The translations under genes and the position numbers were made by a program. A stretch of 21,135 nt of DNA, from positions 1-21,135 of IMG/VR virus record IMGVR_UViG_3300046010_002124; one strand, given 5' to 3'. Positions 12,022 through 17,831 of the stretch are shown here, piece after piece. Below the pieces are notes generated by a model that saw nothing but the letters and a program-made list of their open reading frames with translations, searched no databases and had not been told where the DNA came from. The DNA comes from a virus. Within the stretch, counting starts at the first letter, position 1. The number at the start of each line of letters is the position of its first letter.

Positions 12022-12070
12022 CACCGACACGCCAGGCCCATAAATTACAGGGTTCTTGAATTTGTCGGTG
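12022..12070. promoter_or_regulatory. Operator-like inverted repeat in the divergent intergenic region
   Basis: CACCGACA at 12022-12029 is matched by its exact reverse complement TGTCGGTG at 12063-12070, with 33 bases between. The right arm falls between the -35 and -10 of the forward promoter, so a protein bound there would interfere with transcription. The placement between divergent genes fits a two-site operator; a long-range hairpin is the alternative. Confidence 0.4.
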
Positions 12071-12109
12071 GTTTGGTGTTCAATTTGCGTTACAAGGGCT
12101 GGTTAGCCC
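12056..12109 (+). promoter_or_regulatory. Promoter plus 5' leader hairpin (copy 1)
   Basis: TTGAAT (12056-12061), a 17-base spacer and TTCAAT (12079-12084) form a sigma70-like promoter. About 9-11 bases after the -10 begins the hairpin GGGCT-GGTT-AGCCC (12096-12109... stem arms 12096-12100 and 12105-12109), which would sit at the 5' end of the mRNA. A TAACAGGAAG ribosome-site segment then leads to ATG 12128. The architecture matches the copies at 16991 and 17530. Confidence 0.62.
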
Positions 12110-12127
12110 CTAACAGGAAGGTTACAA

Positions 12128-12721
12128 ATGGCTGGAAATTACGACCCAAATGCTTATGAAACTGTGGCAGAAAGATTACAACGCGCTCACGGTGATCATA
12201 AAGACTTACGCATAATCAATCGCATTATTGACATTGTGCGAGATGCAGAAAACCGCCCATTGCAATACATAGTGGAGTCATCTGTTTATTACGGTGAAAT
12301 TTTAATTGCAGTTGATGTGGCAGAAGAACTTGTTGGTTCATCATTTATCAATAAATCTAATGCTTTAGAAAACGCATCAACAAGTGCGACAGGCAGAAGT
12401 TTGAGCCTGGCTGGTTACATGGGTACAGATCCAAACACTAAAAAGCCAGTGCGCCCGACACAACAAGACATGGAAAAATCAAAGCGCGTTGAAGGTGCAA
12501 CAAAAACCGCACCGCAAGCAAAAGCACCTGCGGTAAAGCGGGAATACACAGAGGAAGAAAAAGCAAGCGCATTTGCTGTTTACAGTTTGATTGAAACTAA
12601 AACTAATGAAGAAGAATTAAAATCTGCGTGGACATTAAATGCAGAGTTGCTTGATGTTGTTGTGGAAGGCTTTACTTTGCGTGATCACATTTTGGCGCGT
12701 AAGGCGGCTCTTAATGGATAA
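12128..12721 (+). CDS. ERF-like single-strand annealing / ssDNA-binding recombination protein
   Basis: A 197-residue protein beginning with YETVAERLQRAHGDH (residues 10-24), a beta stretch (PLQYIVESSVYYGEILIAV) and the motif NALENASTSATGRSLSLAGY at 78-97. The S-x-LENA-x-TSA-x-GR-x-L core is shared by ERF-type annealing proteins and related actinophage ssDNA-binding proteins, which pair complementary strands in recombination-dependent replication. Residues 105-150 are a charged, Lys/Pro/Ala-rich linker, and the C-terminal 50 residues a small helical domain. It opens the operon from the promoter at 12056. A Cas4-like nuclease 1.8 kb downstream could be its exonuclease partner. Confidence 0.65.
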   Translation: MAGNYDPNAYETVAERLQRAHGDHKDLRIINRIIDIVRDAENRPLQYIVESSVYYGEILIAVDVAEELVGSSFINKSNALENASTSATGRSLSLAGYMGTDPNTKKPVRPTQQDMEKSKRVEGATKTAPQAKAPAVKREYTEEEKASAFAVYSLIETKTNEEELKSAWTLNAELLDVVVEGFTLRDHILARKAALNG

Positions 12722-13085
12722 CATGGAATTGCCTTTCAAACCATACGCAGGCACATCAGGTTGGCGCGGATCAGAGGCAAGCCATGACCGCGTGATTGAA
12801 GATGATGTAAGCGGAGCAACTGGCAAACGCCAAAAACAAACTTTAGTTGCTTTAGGTGCGGCAGGTATCCGCGGCCTTACCTGGAAAGAACTAGGTGAAA
12901 TGTTCAATTGGCATGCAGGGCAATCTTCAGGTTGCCTTTCAGTGCTACATCTTGAGGGAATGGTTGCGCGTTTAGCAGATCGCCGTAACCGTTGCTCTAT
13001 CTATGTTCTTCCCGCATTTGTAAACGGTAGAAACATTACAGAAAGAAAAACAAATTCATGTAAGCATTGTGGAGGTGCGTTATGA
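12714..13085 (+). CDS. Winged-helix DNA-binding protein with C-terminal CxxC
   Basis: A 123-residue protein. ATG 12714 is chosen because AAGGCGG precedes it by 6 bases and it overlaps the upstream stop by 8; ATG 12723 is an alternative. Residues about 40-95 (KQKQTLVALGAAGIRGLTWKELGE, then HAGQSSGCLSVLHLEGMVARL and a CSIYVLP wing) form a MarR-like winged helix, a common type in actinophages. The end SCKHCGG carries one CxxC that may bind metal in a dimer. It probably regulates transcription or licenses DNA transactions; it is one candidate to bind the operator-like site at 12022. Confidence 0.72.
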   Translation: MDNMELPFKPYAGTSGWRGSEASHDRVIEDDVSGATGKRQKQTLVALGAAGIRGLTWKELGEMFNWHAGQSSGCLSVLHLEGMVARLADRRNRCSIYVLPAFVNGRNITERKTNSCKHCGGAL

Positions 13086-13342
13086 GCAACAAAGACAATA
13101 AGTTTCAACCTGATGCGGGTTTTGTAGTAGCAGTTCATCAAAACATTTTGGGCATTAGAGCAGTTGCATCAGCGCTTGATGTATTTCCTGAAAAGTTGGC
13201 AGAGTCAATGGCAACTATGGGATTTCAATTTATCCCTGATCCGTTTAATCTTTCATCTGATGCAGGCAAGGTAATTGCGTTGCAAAACAAAAAAGAAAAC
13301 GCAAACATTAGCCTAGTAAAAGAGGAAACAGTTGATGAATGA
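13082..13342 (+). CDS. Hypothetical small phage protein
   Basis: An 86-residue soluble protein from ATG 13082, coupled by an ATGA overlap and preceded by GGAGG. Residues 12-60 are mixed helix with hydrophobic VVAVHQNILGIRAVASALDV, and the C-terminus is charged. The AVASALDVFPEKLAESMATMG stretch could fold as a helix-turn-helix, but I do not recognise a family. Its stop overlaps the next small gene by 8 bases. Confidence 0.65.
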   Translation: MSNKDNKFQPDAGFVVAVHQNILGIRAVASALDVFPEKLAESMATMGFQFIPDPFNLSSDAGKVIALQNKKENANISLVKEETVDE

Positions 13343-13454
13343 GCAAGAAAAAGCATTTTGGGTTTGGTGGGAAAAGATTAAACCCAACACAGATCAAACA
13401 AGTTTGCGCATGGCATTTGATGCTGGTTATCAAGCCAATAAGGGCGGTGAATAA
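13335..13454 (+). CDS. 39-residue microprotein, unknown
   Basis: ATG 13335 overlaps the upstream stop by 8 bases and its stop shares a base with the next start (TAATG), filling the gap exactly. The peptide is Trp-rich (AFWVWWEKIKPN) and ends with MAFDAGYQANKGGE. The W...W...AF-x-AG pattern recurs in tiny phage proteins of unknown role. Support is mainly the perfect coupling on both sides. Confidence 0.6.
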   Translation: MNEQEKAFWVWWEKIKPNTDQTSLRMAFDAGYQANKGGE

Positions 13455-13822
13455 TGTCTGAAATTATTACGCCCGCAATGGTTGAGCAAAAATTACGCGG
13501 GCTTTCTAAAGAAGTAGATGAAGCACATAAAGTTTTGGTAGAGGTGGAAACCATTTATCACAGCGTTAAAGCGGACTATGAAATTGCTATGGCAAAATCA
13601 CGGATTAACCTGGCTACAAAATCTTCACCTACTGGTAAAAACTACACAGTAGGAGAAAGAGAAGATTTGGCTTTGGTTCAAAATGAAGAATTGCACAAAG
13701 ATCTTGCAATTATTCAAGCCAAAATTTTAGCCTCTCGCGCTAATACTAATAGGCTCAAGATGCAGGTGGACATTGCCCGCTCAGTAGGTACATCAGTGCG
13801 CACCAGTATGGATCTCACATGA
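13454..13822 (+). CDS. Coiled-coil phage protein, unknown function
   Basis: A 122-residue almost wholly helical protein, probably a coiled coil: residues 8-50 (VEQKLRGLSKEVDEAHKVL onward) and 72-110 (DLALVQNEELHKDLAIIQAK onward) are long amphipathic helices, joined by a loop with TKSSPTGKNYTVGERED. I do not recognise a named family. The position between recombination genes suggests an accessory role in DNA metabolism, but nothing in the sequence proves it. The stop overlaps the next gene (ATGA). Confidence 0.65.
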   Translation: MSEIITPAMVEQKLRGLSKEVDEAHKVLVEVETIYHSVKADYEIAMAKSRINLATKSSPTGKNYTVGEREDLALVQNEELHKDLAIIQAKILASRANTNRLKMQVDIARSVGTSVRTSMDLT

Positions 13823-13992
13823 TTACATTTCTTGTTTTTTTATTGGGTATTTTTATTGGCTATTGGCTTTATTTATTCAACATGACTTGGAAACTGTACA
13901 AGATCCAAAAAAAATTGGTCAAATTAGAACTAGATCACATGAAAATGATGCAAGATTTACGCGGCCCACAATGGAATGAGGACAATTTATGA
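13819..13992 (+). CDS. Small single-helix membrane protein
   Basis: A 57-residue protein whose first 22 residues are one membrane helix (TFLVFLLGIFIGYWLYLF), followed by a basic juxtamembrane patch and an amphipathic helix. It is coupled by ATGA overlaps to genes on both sides, the downstream one encoding a secreted protein. The pair may act together at the host membrane. No family recognised. Confidence 0.65.
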   Translation: MITFLVFLLGIFIGYWLYLFNMTWKLYKIQKKLVKLELDHMKMMQDLRGPQWNEDNL

Positions 13993-14531
13993 AAAAAGCA
14001 ATTTTAATTTTTCTTTTGCTAGGAAACATTACACCTGCACATGCAAATGAAGTCGGCGGTTGGGTGAAAATAAATGCAAATGGTGGCGTAATCAGCGGAA
14101 CAATGGTTTGCACTCCTGATGTTTGCGGCGATCCAAACAGCCAATACTCAAAAGACACTTTGTTACCAGGTGAGCGCTATGTGCAGATTACAAAAGCAGA
14201 TGCAACAGGCAATGTAACAGGCCCAAATGTTTTAGCGGAAACACGGCCTAATCAAACGGTCAGCGCAAAAATAGATCCTGTAACAAATGTTGCTACCGTT
14301 ACAACAACAACAATTAAACCTTTAGCCCCTAGAGTTACAGTTGTAAAAGAAACAGAAACTACTTATGCGGTAGAACAACCTGTACCAATAACAATTGTAA
14401 AAGCACCAGTTATAGAAATTAAAGAACCTGAAACTATTAAAGAAGATCCTGAATTTATTGATTGGCTTATTGCAATTCAAGATTTTTTTCAAAAGTTGTT
14501 TACCAATTTTACATGGGCGTGGGATCTATGA
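13989..14531 (+). CDS. Secreted protein of unknown function
   Basis: A 180-residue protein with a classical Sec signal peptide: KK, a hydrophobic core (AILIFLLLG) and AHA before a likely cut near residue 19. The mature part starts with a Gly/Asn beta segment holding a CTPDVC pair (possibly a disulfide), a YSKDTLLPGERYVQI segment, then Thr/Val-rich repeats and a Pro/Glu-rich stalk (VKAPVIEIKEPETIKEDPE). It ends in an aromatic hydrophobic helix (FIDWLIAIQDFFQKLF, then FTWAWDL) that could touch the membrane. No family recognised. It is unexpected inside a DNA-metabolism operon; superinfection exclusion or envelope modification is a reasonable guess. Confidence 0.75.
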   Translation: MKKAILIFLLLGNITPAHANEVGGWVKINANGGVISGTMVCTPDVCGDPNSQYSKDTLLPGERYVQITKADATGNVTGPNVLAETRPNQTVSAKIDPVTNVATVTTTTIKPLAPRVTVVKETETTYAVEQPVPITIVKAPVIEIKEPETIKEDPEFIDWLIAIQDFFQKLFTNFTWAWDL

Positions 14532-15199
14532 TTGATCTACAAAACATGGTGGTCAAAACCCTGGTTGCAAATGATAATGCTAGGGCTAGATCACAACAAA
14601 CAGCCATTGGGCCATCTGCAATTGGTGGGTGTCAGCGCAGGCTTTGGCATGACATAGCGCAAACAACGCCAACAAATGTTGGTGACAAGTTAGGCGCAAT
14701 CTTAGGCACTTACATTCACACAGGAATTGAAGAAGCAATACGCCGTGAAGATCCATTTGGCGTTCAGTATGAATTAGAAATTGCTGTTGAAGCCAATGGA
14801 GTACCTGGCCATGTAGATTGCTACGACAAAATCAGCCACACCGTTATTGATTGGAAAACAATAAAAAAAGGCAGTGGCCGTTACTTTGGTGGCAACAACA
14901 GGCAACAAGTTTGGCAAGTTCATCTTTACGGTTATTTGCTGAAACAAAATGGTTACATTGTTGCAGATGTGGCGCTTGTTGGAATTCCGCGTGATGGAAA
15001 AATGTCAGACATTTTGGTGTACGCCCAACCTTATGATGAAGAAATTGCGTTACAAGCGTTGGCGCATTTGGAAAAAACAAGGGAAATGGTTGCTTTGCAA
15101 CTTAAACCTTCTCCTGAAAAACCTTTGGCTTTTTGTGCGGATTTTTGCCCATACTACGATCCGACAGGAGCAGAAGGTTGTCCGAGTATTCAAAAGTAG
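14528..15199 (+). CDS. Cas4-like PD-(D/E)XK exonuclease with Fe-S cysteines
   Basis: A 223-residue protein from ATG 14528 (ATGA overlap). RecB/Cas4-type nuclease motifs are present: His64 in TYIHTGIEEA, Asp97 in PGHVDCYD, Asp108-x-Lys110 in VIDWKTIK, and QVHLYGY (Q-x-x-x-Y) after. Cys35 in GGCQRRLW plus Cys203, Cys207 and Cys218 near the C-terminus match the four Fe-S cluster ligands of Cas4 and AddB. The family digests DNA ends to give single strands. No CRISPR genes are near, so a role in recombination or replication, probably with the ERF-like protein, is more likely. The WhiB gene begins inside its 3' end. Confidence 0.85.
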   Translation: MIDLQNMVVKTLVANDNARARSQQTAIGPSAIGGCQRRLWHDIAQTTPTNVGDKLGAILGTYIHTGIEEAIRREDPFGVQYELEIAVEANGVPGHVDCYDKISHTVIDWKTIKKGSGRYFGGNNRQQVWQVHLYGYLLKQNGYIVADVALVGIPRDGKMSDILVYAQPYDEEIALQALAHLEKTREMVALQLKPSPEKPLAFCADFCPYYDPTGAEGCPSIQK

Positions 15200-15522
15200 A
15201 TTGGGATAAGGCAGAGTGCAGGCGTTTAGAAATTTACACGGATCTTTTTTATGACATAGAAGAAGAAAGATCTGTAAACGCCTACGATCACATCAACGCG
15301 GTGCGGGCCATTTGCGTCTCTTGCCCAATTTGGAAAGATTGTTTAACCTACGCATTTCAGAATGAAAATTACGGAATGTGGGGCGCAATGACTAGCCAGG
15401 AGAGGGCAAGTATTGATGAACCGTTGAAGTATCCAAATCAACGCATCAGAGGACTCAAAGAATTACAACAAATGGGAATTTCTTTAGAACAGATCAAAGA
15501 GTGCAAAGGAGGGGCAAAGTGA
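15178..15522 (+). CDS. whiB: WhiB-family Fe-S transcription regulator
   Basis: A 114-residue WhiB-like protein. TTG 15178 is chosen because AGGAG lies 8 bases upstream and no ATG or GTG gives a sensible N-terminus; earlier starts only add sequence overlapping the nuclease gene. The four cluster cysteines are Cys14, Cys46, Cys49 and Cys55 (C-x2-C-x5-C), followed by the family turn GMWGA (66-70). WhiB proteins bind the primary sigma factor through the cluster region and control division, development or stress genes in Actinobacteria. A phage copy, as in mycobacteriophage TM4, can block host WhiB2 function and superinfection. The C-terminus (about 85-114) is charged and ends CKGGAK. Confidence 0.9.
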   Translation: MSEYSKVDWDKAECRRLEIYTDLFYDIEEERSVNAYDHINAVRAICVSCPIWKDCLTYAFQNENYGMWGAMTSQERASIDEPLKYPNQRIRGLKELQQMGISLEQIKECKGGAK

Positions 15523-16325
15523 CTTCATTACCGTACATGCAGTTGTATGTTTCTGATTACCTGGCAGATACAGCGCACTTAACAGCGCAACAACATGGCG
15601 CTTACATGCTTTTGTTAATGAATTATTGGCAACGCGGCAAAGCACTAGATAACAGCAATGAACGGCTATCTCATGTGGCGCGTTTAAGCCCTGAAGAATG
15701 GGCAGAAGCGAAGCCAACGCTAGAAGAATTTTTTATTGTTGAAGATAATGTTTGGACTCATGCCAGGGTTGAAGATGACCTAGCAAAGATCCGTGAGAAG
15801 TCTCTTAAAGCATCATTTGCAGGGCGTAGATCAGTTGTTGCGCGTGGATTGAACAAGAGTTCAACAAACGCTGAACAATCGTTGAACCATAAAGAGGAAG
15901 ATAAAGAGGAAGATAAAGACATAAGCAAAAAAGAGTTGTTTGTGGATTTTTGGAATGTTTACCCAATTAAAGTTGGCAAAGGAGCGGCACAAAAAGCATT
16001 TGAAAAAGCGATCCGTACAACTGATGCAGACATAATCATTAAAGGCGCTCAGAGGTACAAATCAGACCCAAACAGAGTGCAGGCATACACAGCACATGCC
16101 TCCACCTGGTTAAACGCTCAGAGATGGCTTGATGAGGCTTTACCACAGCGTAATCTTTCGCCCGCAGAAATTAAAGAAAAAGAATTACAGGAAGCGCGCA
16201 TAAAAACAGAGCGAGAAAAGGAGCAGGCGGCGGAATGGTTCAGAGAACAGGAAGAAGCAAAACGCAACGCAGTTCCACCACCCGCAGAATTGAGAGAATT
16301 GTTGAGAAAGAGTTTTACAAAATAA
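15519..16325 (+). CDS. DUF1376-type phage replication protein (primosome/helicase-loader-like)
   Basis: A 268-residue protein starting at GTG 15519 (GTGA overlap with the WhiB stop), with AGGAGG 6-7 bases upstream. Residues 1-90 are a DUF1376 domain (YMQLYVSDYLADTAHLTAQQ, then GAYMLLLMNYWQRG), a winged-helix DNA-binding module of phage replication initiators. A charged linker with EEDKEEDKD follows, then a second domain at about 143-205 (FVDFWNVYPIKVGKGAAQKAF, ending ASTWLNAQRWLDE), the usual partner domain. The C-terminal 60 residues are a Glu/Arg/Lys coiled coil. It probably recruits the host helicase to phage DNA, since no phage helicase is seen. Confidence 0.85.
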   Translation: MTSLPYMQLYVSDYLADTAHLTAQQHGAYMLLLMNYWQRGKALDNSNERLSHVARLSPEEWAEAKPTLEEFFIVEDNVWTHARVEDDLAKIREKSLKASFAGRRSVVARGLNKSSTNAEQSLNHKEEDKEEDKDISKKELFVDFWNVYPIKVGKGAAQKAFEKAIRTTDADIIIKGAQRYKSDPNRVQAYTAHASTWLNAQRWLDEALPQRNLSPAEIKEKELQEARIKTEREKEQAAEWFREQEEAKRNAVPPPAELRELLRKSFTK

Positions 16326-16339
16326 CTCAAACATTATCT

Positions 16340-16368
16340 GTAACTGTTACTATAGATGTAACCATTAC
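16340..16368. promoter_or_regulatory. Two similar 11-mers around a possible -10 box
   Basis: GTAACTGTTAC (16340-16350, a perfect inverted repeat around one base) and GTAACCATTAC (16358-16368) lie 18 bases apart, close to two helical turns, in the 53-base gap before the gene at 16379. TACTAT/TATAGA between them could be a -10 box. This looks like an operator or promoter region, but no -35 is clear. Confidence 0.35.
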
Positions 16369-16378
16369 AGGAGGAACT

Positions 16379-16567
16379 ATGACTAAGCAATTAGTTGATC
16401 CCGCAATTGTACAAGCAGGAGATCATGTATTAGCAAAAGGCCATGATCTAATGGTGAAATACATACAAGGGCCTGATCACTTTGGCGTTTATGATTTTCA
16501 TGGCGTTAATGAATTAGGAAAAGATCAAATTGCAATAGCGCAGGATTTTATTACACTGATTAGGTGA
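16379..16567 (+). CDS. 62-residue phage protein, unknown
   Basis: From ATG 16379 with a strong AGGAGGAA site. A small soluble beta-rich protein (QAGDHVLAKGHDLMVKYIQG, then FGVYDFHGVNEL) with several His and Asp; it does not match a family I can name. Its stop overlaps the RusA start as GTGA. An upstream in-frame extension exists but would overlap the DUF1376 gene heavily and lacks a ribosome site. Confidence 0.65.
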   Translation: MTKQLVDPAIVQAGDHVLAKGHDLMVKYIQGPDHFGVYDFHGVNELGKDQIAIAQDFITLIR

Positions 16568-16944
16568 TTACTTTTCAGGTAGATGGCCAACCAGTTCCGC
16601 AAGGATCTATGAAAGTCATCAATGGGCATGTCATACATGCCAAAGGTTCAGAACTGGCCGCGTGGCGTTCTGCCATTGCTTTGCGGGCCAGGGAAGCAGG
16701 GGCAAAGCCGCACCTTGAGCCAGTTGAAATAGACATGATTTTTACAATGAACCGCCCAAAGACCGTAAACCGCCCTGAGCCGTCTGTAGCCCCTGACCTG
16801 GATAAATTGGTCAGAGCAGTCCTAGACGGCCTGACAGCCATTGCCTACCGTGATGATGGGCAGGTTGTACGCTTGACCGCGGCAAAGCAGTATGGGATCA
16901 CCCCTGGGCTTTGGGTTCAAATGTGGGCCAAAATGCCCGCTTAG
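16564..16944 (+). CDS. rusA: RusA-like Holliday junction resolvase
   Basis: A 126-residue protein, GTG start at 16564 overlapping the previous stop. It has the RusA layout: an N-terminal strand and QGSMK (residues 13-17), the metal-binding core PDLDKLVRAVLDGL (77-90, Asp78, Asp80, Asp88), and RDDGQVV (Asp97, Asp98). RusA enzymes are dimers that cut Holliday junctions and branched DNA, here resolving recombination intermediates before packaging. Base composition stands out: three consecutive 60-base lines (16681-16860) are 53-57% G+C by count against 33% just upstream (16501-16560). Recent acquisition from a higher-GC source is likely. Confidence 0.88.
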   Translation: MITFQVDGQPVPQGSMKVINGHVIHAKGSELAAWRSAIALRAREAGAKPHLEPVEIDMIFTMNRPKTVNRPEPSVAPDLDKLVRAVLDGLTAIAYRDDGQVVRLTAAKQYGITPGLWVQMWAKMPA

Positions 16945-16990
16945 GCGGCGCGACACGCCAAAAAGATTTTTTAAGGATTTGCCACTTTTT

Positions 16991-17044
16991 TTGCCAAATA
17001 CCTGATTTGTAGTGTAATCTTTCTTTTGTAAGGGCAAGTAGCCC
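16991..17044 (+). promoter_or_regulatory. Promoter plus 5' leader hairpin (copy 2)
   Basis: TTGCCA (16991-16996), a 16-base spacer and TGTAAT (17013-17018) form a promoter; TAATCT two bases on is an alternative -10. The hairpin GGGC-AAGTA-GCCC follows at 17032-17044, close to the expected transcription start, then AAAGAAAGAAGGCA and ATG 17064. The 46-base gap upstream (16945-16990) holds CGACACGCCA, shared with 12025-12034, and no gene. Confidence 0.65.
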
Positions 17045-17063
17045 AAAAGAAAGAAGGCAGAAA

Positions 17064-17240
17064 ATGGATCGTGTAACGCTAGGTGGCAATGTAACAATCA
17101 ACGGTAAAGCAATGTGGACTGTTGAAGGAATTATGACTAACGGAGATGTAAGCATTTACCGTTATGTAGATACAAAGAATTCACGCCGTTTAATTTCACG
17201 CCGTATCTCACCACTCAAGTTAAAGAAGTGGGGAAACTAA
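17064..17240 (+). CDS. 58-residue basic phage protein, unknown
   Basis: First gene after the copy 2 promoter, with AAGAAGG 7 bases before ATG 17064. It is basic and beta-rich (VTINGKAMWTVEGIMTNGDV, then RRLISRRISPLKLKKW), with the pattern of a small nucleic-acid-binding beta protein, though no family is recognised. Two copies of the 10-mer TTCACGCCGT occur in its 3' half at 17179-17202, encoding Ser-Arg-Arg twice. Confidence 0.65.
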   Translation: MDRVTLGGNVTINGKAMWTVEGIMTNGDVSIYRYVDTKNSRRLISRRISPLKLKKWGN

Positions 17241-17242
17241 TA

Positions 17243-17515
17243 ATGGCTACAACAAAAATTCAAGCAGGGGAAGGCGTTAATTACGCAGATCCAAAATCTA
17301 ATGTTGAATGGAATGATCCGTTTTGTGTTCAATGTGGCCGCAAAGTTGGGGCAGATGCCTGGCATGTAGAAATCATTAAGGGCGGCGAGATCCGCTTACA
17401 AGATGGCACTGAACATGATGTGGCCGCTGATGCTGGTTACATGGGTTGCTGGCCAGTAGGCAATGAGTGCGCTAAGAAATTTGCACCAAACCTACTTTTT
17501 AAGATGGCAAGATAA
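17243..17515 (+). CDS. Small probable zinc-binding phage protein
   Basis: A 90-residue protein from ATG 17243, 2 bases after the previous stop. Residues 25-34 hold FCVQCGRKVG, and further Cys occur in GYMGCWPVGNECAKKF near 70-82, giving a C-x2-C plus C-x7-C set that may bind zinc. A His between (DAWHVE) could contribute. Proteins of this kind, linking a treble-clef-like start to GxxCxxxGxECAK, are common and uncharacterised in actinophages. An upstream GTG is not favoured. Confidence 0.68.
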   Translation: MATTKIQAGEGVNYADPKSNVEWNDPFCVQCGRKVGADAWHVEIIKGGEIRLQDGTEHDVAADAGYMGCWPVGNECAKKFAPNLLFKMAR

Positions 17516-17529
17516 TTGGCAAAATGTGT

Positions 17530-17581
17530 TTGACAAACTTCCCCAAAAAGTTTTACAATTAACTTACAAGGGCAAAAGCCC
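17530..17581 (+). promoter_or_regulatory. Promoter plus 5' leader hairpin (copy 3)
   Basis: A near-consensus promoter: TTGACA (17530-17535), 18-base spacer, TACAAT (17554-17559). Ten bases later the hairpin GGGC-AAAA-GCCC occupies 17570-17581, at the expected 5' end of the transcript. ACAGGAAGAAGG and ATG 17604 follow. It is the strongest of the three related copies. Confidence 0.75.
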
Positions 17582-17603
17582 CAAAACAGGAAGAAGGCGC
17601 AAA

Positions 17604-17831
17604 ATGACATTAACAACAAACAAGACAGTAGTGAACAGCAAGTTGGTATTCAATCAATACCGCATTACTGAATACGCAGATCAAACATACCGTTACGAAA
17701 ATTACCCATACTTTTTTAACAGCCAAATGGCGGCGCTTGCATGGGGCCGCGCTTATGACACTGCACAAAAAGAACTACGCGAAGTTCAAGACCACATCAA
17801 CAACTTAATCAATCAAGTGGAGGCAAACTAA
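17604..17831 (+). CDS. 75-residue phage protein, unknown
   Basis: ATG 17604 is chosen over upstream GTG codons because the copy 3 promoter and hairpin lie between them. The protein has a Tyr/Asn-rich beta start (RITEYADQTYRYENYPYFF) and a long helix (MAALAWGRAYDTAQKELREV to the end). It reads like a small helical dimer. No family recognised; expression from the strongest promoter here suggests an early or abundant product. Confidence 0.68.
   Translation: MTLTTNKTVVNSKLVFNQYRITEYADQTYRYENYPYFFNSQMAALAWGRAYDTAQKELREVQDHINNLINQVEAN

Follow-up and report, generated by a model that had tools for sequence, protein, structure and literature searches.

Why should one virus place the same short hairpin, at nearly the same distance behind a promoter, at the head of several operons, and is it the sequence of the hairpin or its fold that matters? 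The question is raised by IMG/VR virus record IMGVR_UViG_3300046010_002124, of which the 21,135 bases analysed here are called the window. A first-pass annotation had named three units, at 12056, 16991 and 17530, each consisting of a sigma70-like promoter, the motif AAGGGC-loop-GCCC and a ribosome site, and a pattern search bore out all three positions. AAGGGC-N3-9-GCCC matched three times on the plus (gene) strand of the window and never on the minus strand, and the reversed control pattern gave 0 and 1 matches. We propose, with a probability of roughly 0.55, that these units serve an aquatic actinophage family as expression cassettes, in which a 5′-terminal hairpin would act as a sequence-indifferent mRNA protector and insulator, with a translation lock added at the second copy. 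The parts of the three cassettes (nt, nucleotides) are as follows.

12056..12084, plus strand: promoter 1, with -35 TTGAAT (12056-12061), a spacer of 17 and -10 TTCAAT (12079-12084).
12092, plus strand: predicted transcript start 1, an A 8 nt past the -10, opening a 4-nt unpaired tail (ACAA); placed from spacing and a pyrimidine-purine (YR) start.
12096..12109, plus strand: hairpin 1, GGGCT-GGTT-AGCCC.
12115..12121, plus strand: ribosome site 1, AGGAAGG, with ATG at 12128.
16991..17020, plus strand: promoter 2, with -35 TTGCCA (16991-16996), a spacer of 18 and -10 TAATCT (17015-17020).
17018..17027, plus strand: 5′ arm of an outer helix at copy 2, TCTTTCTTTT, the exact reverse complement of 17045-17054.
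17028, plus strand: predicted transcript start 2, directly 3′ of that arm.
17032..17044, plus strand: hairpin 2 (the inner helix), GGGC-AAGTA-GCCC, with covariation in 67 sites and ATG at 17064.
17045..17054, plus strand: 3′ arm of the outer helix, AAAAGAAAGA, which shares bases with the purine-rich ribosome site GAAAGAAGG (17049-17057).
17530..17559, plus strand: promoter 3, TTGACA, a spacer of 18 and TACAAT (17554-17559); at 11/12 the best promoter match of the window.
17570..17581, plus strand: hairpin 3, GGGC-AAAA-GCCC, with predicted transcript start A17566 and ATG at 17604.

Relatives were fetched by protein, without use of the hairpin: the protein downstream of copy 1 led to 40 viral loci, and RusA, encoded upstream of copy 2, to 53. 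A RusA alignment search reached proteins down to 61% identity. The copy-2 set comprises 67 sites fetched by RusA protein alone, in which the 175-190 bases behind rusA were read. The succession of -10, about 11 bases, hairpin, purine-rich site and start codon was present in nearly every rusA locus extending far enough, and the hairpin stood at one register in 67/67 anchored copy-2 sites. The two most distant viral loci (L129 and L130, 35% identity) and the bacterial loci L211 and L214 were without this architecture. Copies 1 and 3 are also conserved in relatives.

Conservation also decides how far the promoters can be trusted. Promoter-like sites in the window are not in excess by a generic sigma-70 scan (32 against 40.9 in shuffles), and only the promoter of copy 3 passes it; the sigma70-like promoters claimed earlier for copies 1 and 2 therefore rest on relatives. 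TTCAAT/TTGAAT of promoter 1 is retained in 28 distinct relatives, and at copy 2 the relatives favour TAATCT, with a spacer of 18, over the overlapping TGTAAT (17013-17018) that had been named as the -10. The stems have no T run behind them, and an intrinsic terminator was rejected.

What is kept at the copy-2 site is pairing and not letters. The 67 sites contain 21 kinds of stem and 34 loops of 3-8 nt. Among the stems are GGGC/GCCC, GGGGG/CCCCC, GGGAG/CTCCC, GGGAAA/TTTCCC, GGGGAA/TTCCCC, GGTGAA/TTCACC, GGGAC/GTCCC, GGGTC/GACCC, GGTCC/GGACC, GGTTC/GAACC and TTGAGATC/GATCTCAA, and even GCCC/GGGC, in which the polarity is reversed. These covarying stems are of 4-8 base pairs (bp), and all but one show perfect Watson-Crick pairing. 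In a gap-free alignment of 29 copy-2 rows, 145/145 cells were Watson-Crick pairs and 4/5 pairs were altered on both sides. The covariation score was 0.614 against 0.155 in shuffles, none of 500 shuffles scoring as high, and registers slid by 1-3 columns scored far lower than the true stem register. Exchanging 5′ arms between relatives weakened the fold (0/300 permutations as good). The RusA tree, on which 50/67 sites could be placed, requires at least 27 changes of stem type, and four sets of identical RusA proteins have different stems. Covariation of this kind strongly supports the view that the copy-2-site hairpin is a structure under selection, not a sequence tag. Selection for RNA structure had been proposed before, from differing loops on conserved stems within the window; the proposal gains support from the relatives, whereas its original argument falls, because the three window stems are identical in sequence.

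That identity, together with a copy-1 stem that is invariant in 28 distinct relatives while its loop and the first genes behind it differ, is what one would expect of a shared recognition tag, with a phage protein binding each RNA hairpin or a repressor binding the DNA dyad. Such a tag, or protein target, was also suggested by the first-pass annotation, and we hold it to be very improbable: the stems and loops at the copy-2 site are not conserved in sequence, polarity itself being reversed in one stem, different stems occur in one genome, and the varying loop lengths leave the spacing of half-sites unfixed. At the copy-2 site, a DNA operator or a protein target read by sequence thus appears unlikely.

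The position of the hairpin is set from the promoter side. Among the copy-2 relatives the distance from -10 to stem is 10.8 ± 0.5 nt, and that from stem to start codon 17.2 ± 1.9 nt (range 12-21). A pyrimidine-purine step is the usual start of a transcript, and one lies 3-4 bases before the stem in 57/59 distinct copy-2 sites, where a fraction of 0.50 is expected by chance; hence the RNA most likely opens with 3-4 unpaired bases followed directly by the stem, all starts being predicted ones. The second base is never G in the 57 YR sites. A G at the second position matters for RppH of B. subtilis (PMC3997798), although the enzyme of these hosts may differ.

These distances also bear on two further explanations. 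The hairpin could be mainly translational, keeping the ribosome site single-stranded in a short leader or serving as a standby element, with stability secondary; ribosome sites are indeed mostly open in the predicted local transcripts (0.74 unpaired), and the stem lies on average 17 nt from the start codon. An element addressed to the ribosome would, however, be expected to be fixed from the other side, and the spacing to the start codon is about fourfold looser than that to the -10, so that we regard a chiefly translational role as unlikely. The constant distance from the -10, and the location at operon heads of early-type genes, would equally suit an effect on early transcription, in which the nascent hairpin aids promoter escape or loads an antitermination-type modification of RNA polymerase, as exemplified by the put RNA of phage HK022. 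Elements such as put and nut are read by both sequence and shape, unlike the stems and loops here, which are unconstrained, and this explanation seems to us quite improbable.

The protector and insulator reading is further consistent with the way in which genes change behind the hairpin. Genes following the copy-2 hairpin fall into 31 clusters, or about 28 when three with badly chosen starts are set aside; one gene cluster follows five different stems, and one stem precedes many clusters. The hairpin therefore belongs to the site and not to the gene behind it. Relatives that lose the pairing but retain the downstream genes had been named in advance as a result that would speak against the proposal; in a stricter version of that test, pairing persists even where the downstream gene is replaced.

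The device is also spread over several operons. In the window and seven roughly 40-kilobase relatives, 14 of 143 operon heads defined by a simple gene caller show the spacing of -10, hairpin and ribosome site, and shuffling of the upstream regions leaves 0.4. Some short genes escape the caller, among them those of window copies 2 and 3. Both the operon-head and the spacing criteria are needed, because a loose genome-wide count of hairpins that ignored gene context did no better than the reversed controls. The regulon across several operon heads that had been proposed is thus supported, and relatives add a fourth cassette, TATAAT...CCTCA-loop-TGAGG...AGGAAGG-ATG, whose stem is unrelated to those of the other cassettes; relatives carrying it show that one genome can hold different stems. 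In two of the roughly 40-kilobase relatives it is placed as follows, and it occurs in further loci too.

L073 10547 (G005:30547), minus strand: fourth cassette.
L075 1603 (G006:21603), minus strand: fourth cassette.

A second helix, not noticed in the first-pass annotation, surrounds the inner hairpin. The segment separating the -10 from the predicted start pairs, in many relatives, with bases just 3′ of the hairpin, and the 3′ side of this outer helix overlaps or touches the ribosome site. Its arms exchange in matched form (TTCTGTT/AACAGAA, TTCTCTT/AAGAGAA, TGTCTT/AAGACA, GGTCTA/TAGACC), and at window copy 2 the complementarity amounts to 10 bp, 17018-17027 with 17045-17054. Since the outer pairing did not fit a single alignment register, partners were permuted instead among 30 cluster representatives, and 7/5000 permutations reached the observed pairing. 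Over 56 sites the predicted unpaired probability of the ribosome site was 0.74 for RNA started locally, 0.28 for read-through RNA and 0.40 for read-through RNA with the pre-start segment shuffled (Wilcoxon 8e-8, relatedness not corrected for). For window copy 2 the corresponding values were 0.98, 0.02 and 0.38; its read-through fold had z = -2.35, 3/200 shuffles were as good, and the start codon was paired as well. The outer helix is thus statistically supported at the copy-2 site, and only there, with weaker support than the inner hairpin has. Copy 2 lies 86 bases 3′ of the co-directional rusA and copy 1 behind a divergent gene, an orientation that fits a lock against read-through.

From these results the following mechanism may be drawn. 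In each cassette a promoter of sigma-70 type would give an RNA that opens with an unpaired tail of 3-4 bases and runs at once into a short, strong hairpin, behind which lie the purine-rich ribosome site and the start codon. The 5′-terminal stem would shield the mRNA from 5′-end-dependent decay, that is, from pyrophosphate removal and from entry of RNase E and RNase J, and as an insulator it would keep upstream sequence off the ribosome site. At copy 2 only, the stretch that links the -10 to the transcript start would pair with the ribosome-site side, so that read-through RNA from rusA would adopt a longer hairpin and yield little protein. RNA from the local promoter, which is without the 5′ arm, would be translated, as in T4 gene e. 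Carried further, this suggests a nested promoter-hairpin switch, in which the untranscribed -10-to-start stretch doubles as an anti-ribosome-site arm, only local, hairpin-capped messages are translated, accessory genes are swapped behind an interchangeable site, and both helices have re-evolved in matched pairs across the actinophage family. We offer this wider picture tentatively, at slightly below an even chance.

Several points weigh against the mechanism. The hairpin itself served to set the stem registers, by eye and ahead of the statistics. This gives the inner helix an advantage in the percentage paired, which it inflates, but not in the two-sided exchange. Despite the frequent stem changes, no G-U pair or one-sided change occurs among the 145 paired cells. 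The lack of G-U is unusual for an RNA and leaves a DNA-level cause compatible with the data; rapid swapping of entire cassettes would account for it. The stem of copy 1 does not vary, and this copy alone therefore cannot tell an RNA function from a DNA function. For the lock, the effect of the outer helix is weak at copy 1 (0.35 vs 0.40) and absent at copy 3 (0.58 vs 0.58), and copy 3 does not fit in that it follows a co-directional gene without having a lock. Part of the outer-helix effect comes everywhere from base composition, the promoter segment being rich in pyrimidines and the ribosome site opposite it in purines, and the whole outer complementarity, though not the inner hairpin, could be a by-product of this contrast, without any lock function. 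Shuffling the segment already drops read-through accessibility to 0.40, which, with the little or no effect at copies 1 and 3, makes the by-product a serious contender; specific pairs nevertheless beat permutation and clean two-sided exchanges are seen, and we place it somewhat short of even odds. Protection by the inner hairpin may in turn be partial, since 3-4 unpaired 5′ bases suffice for some RppH enzymes, that of B. subtilis needing at least two (PMC3997798). Finally, structure, position and turnover were computed, and it is from these that we infer protection and lock.

The neighbouring genes indicate where such a phage may live. WhiB and the GC content point to a low-GC actinobacterium as host, and family searches showed that the window also encodes a PD-(D/E)XK exonuclease and a DUF1376 replication protein.

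15133-15522: gene for a transcription factor of the WhiB family (PF02467, 3e-12), an actinophage marker.
16564..16944, plus strand: rusA (PF05866, 1.8e-13), anchor for fetching relatives; read-through from it would enter cassette 2.
17064..17240, plus strand: first gene of cassette 2, 58 amino acids, no family match; swapped for unrelated genes in relatives.
17604..17831, plus strand: first gene of cassette 3, 75 amino acids, no family match.

The region 17064-17831 is a hypervariable accessory-gene slot, in which relatives place about 28 unrelated families of small proteins behind one and the same cassette; its genes in the window had no match in Pfam or PHROGs, and no Rfam family matched the window above the curated threshold. 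A further GGGC-N6-GCCC at the end of rusA (16925-16938) is shared by several relatives, which its place within coding sequence appears to explain. Other dyads occur in relatives after the rusA stop and ahead of promoter 2, at 140-40 nt 5′ of the copy-2 hairpin: TGTGA-N4-6-TCACA (CRP/GlxR-like) in 10 of the 67 copy-2 sites and GAAC-N4-GTTC (LexA-like) in 7. The dyad of the window at 16945-16960 is GGCGGCGCGACACGCC. These could be operators or 3′ hairpins.

A DNA search of 50,697 phage records for isolated relatives gave one weak 1% match, and the gene at 12128 had no relative among these records; KU886271 and KU886273 are freshwater actinophage records, relatives of the first isolated Nanopelagicales phages (PMC10202952). 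In bacterial genomes a single-protein RusA search found no relative and the RusA alignment search only distant ones. A covariance model run on 148 actinobacterial genomes gave weak matches, those inspected resembling coding sequence without promoter or leader; the model detects copy-2-like sites only, misses copies 1 and 3, and is no general detector. In a streamlined actinobacterial genome of 0.8 megabases, 2/371 operon heads had the architecture against 0.7 expected, which can be no more than a hint that the host itself makes no use of the device, as the compared genome may not be that of the host.

How a phage keeps its messages stable and well timed in hosts difficult to culture is usually approached through single genes, and dozens of natural compensatory variants make this family a clean comparative case. 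Accessory genes are seen exchanging behind a conserved expression module, and the analysis names exact base changes that can be tested and offers a sequence-indifferent leader hairpin.

Several known systems share features with these cassettes. The T7 late (gene 10) leader is a phage mRNA opening with a G-rich hairpin ahead of the ribosome site; there, however, the T7 RNA polymerase promoter fixes the first letters, and stem turnover is absent. Our search of the literature on freshwater actinophages found nothing like these hairpin cassettes reported. In ompA, a nonspecific 5′ stem-loop and the ribosome site together give mRNA longevity (PMC7148126), and 5′ stabilising leaders such as ompA and aprE are also treated in PMC3997798 and PMC7509114, the latter citing a 5′ hairpin of Mycobacterium smegmatis gyrase mRNA (Unniraman 2002). 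All have a stem-loop at or near the 5′ end with the ribosome site directly behind, and the stem sequence of ompA is unimportant. Structure likewise prevails over stem sequence here (21 stems, 145/145 cells paired), and the placement is 5′-terminal, the stem lying 3-4 nt from the predicted start and 10.8 nt after the -10. Unlike those leaders, the phage family repeats its hairpin at several operon heads with fast stem turnover, and the stabilising effect is one we infer.

The nearest repeated start-site elements in actinophages are SAS and ESAS of the cluster K mycobacteriophages, which are likewise motifs with inverted repeats, recurring where some of the non-structural genes begin. SAS is a fixed 13-bp sequence that is the ribosome site itself (PMC3203893). 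This sequence, GGGATAGGAGCCC, found 3-8 nt before the start codon, is absent from our cassettes, whose stems end 12-21 nt before it. For ESAS, the 17-bp imperfect repeats show departures that, according to the authors, do not support RNA pairing (PMC3203893), unlike the covarying stems of 4-8 bp described here, in which pairing covaries perfectly and sequence is not fixed.

For T4 e, soc, 49 and I-TevI a translation lock is documented (PMC3014915). There, as predicted here, a stem conceals the ribosome site when RNA reads through from upstream; its 5′ arm contains a promoter, and the RNA started locally is without this arm. The present cassettes differ in their sigma-70-type promoter, in the extra inner hairpin kept in the local transcript, and in that the lock is predicted at 1/3 sites. 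What the comparison suggests to be new is a pre-start segment complementary to the Shine-Dalgarno side at copy 2, nested with an inner hairpin.

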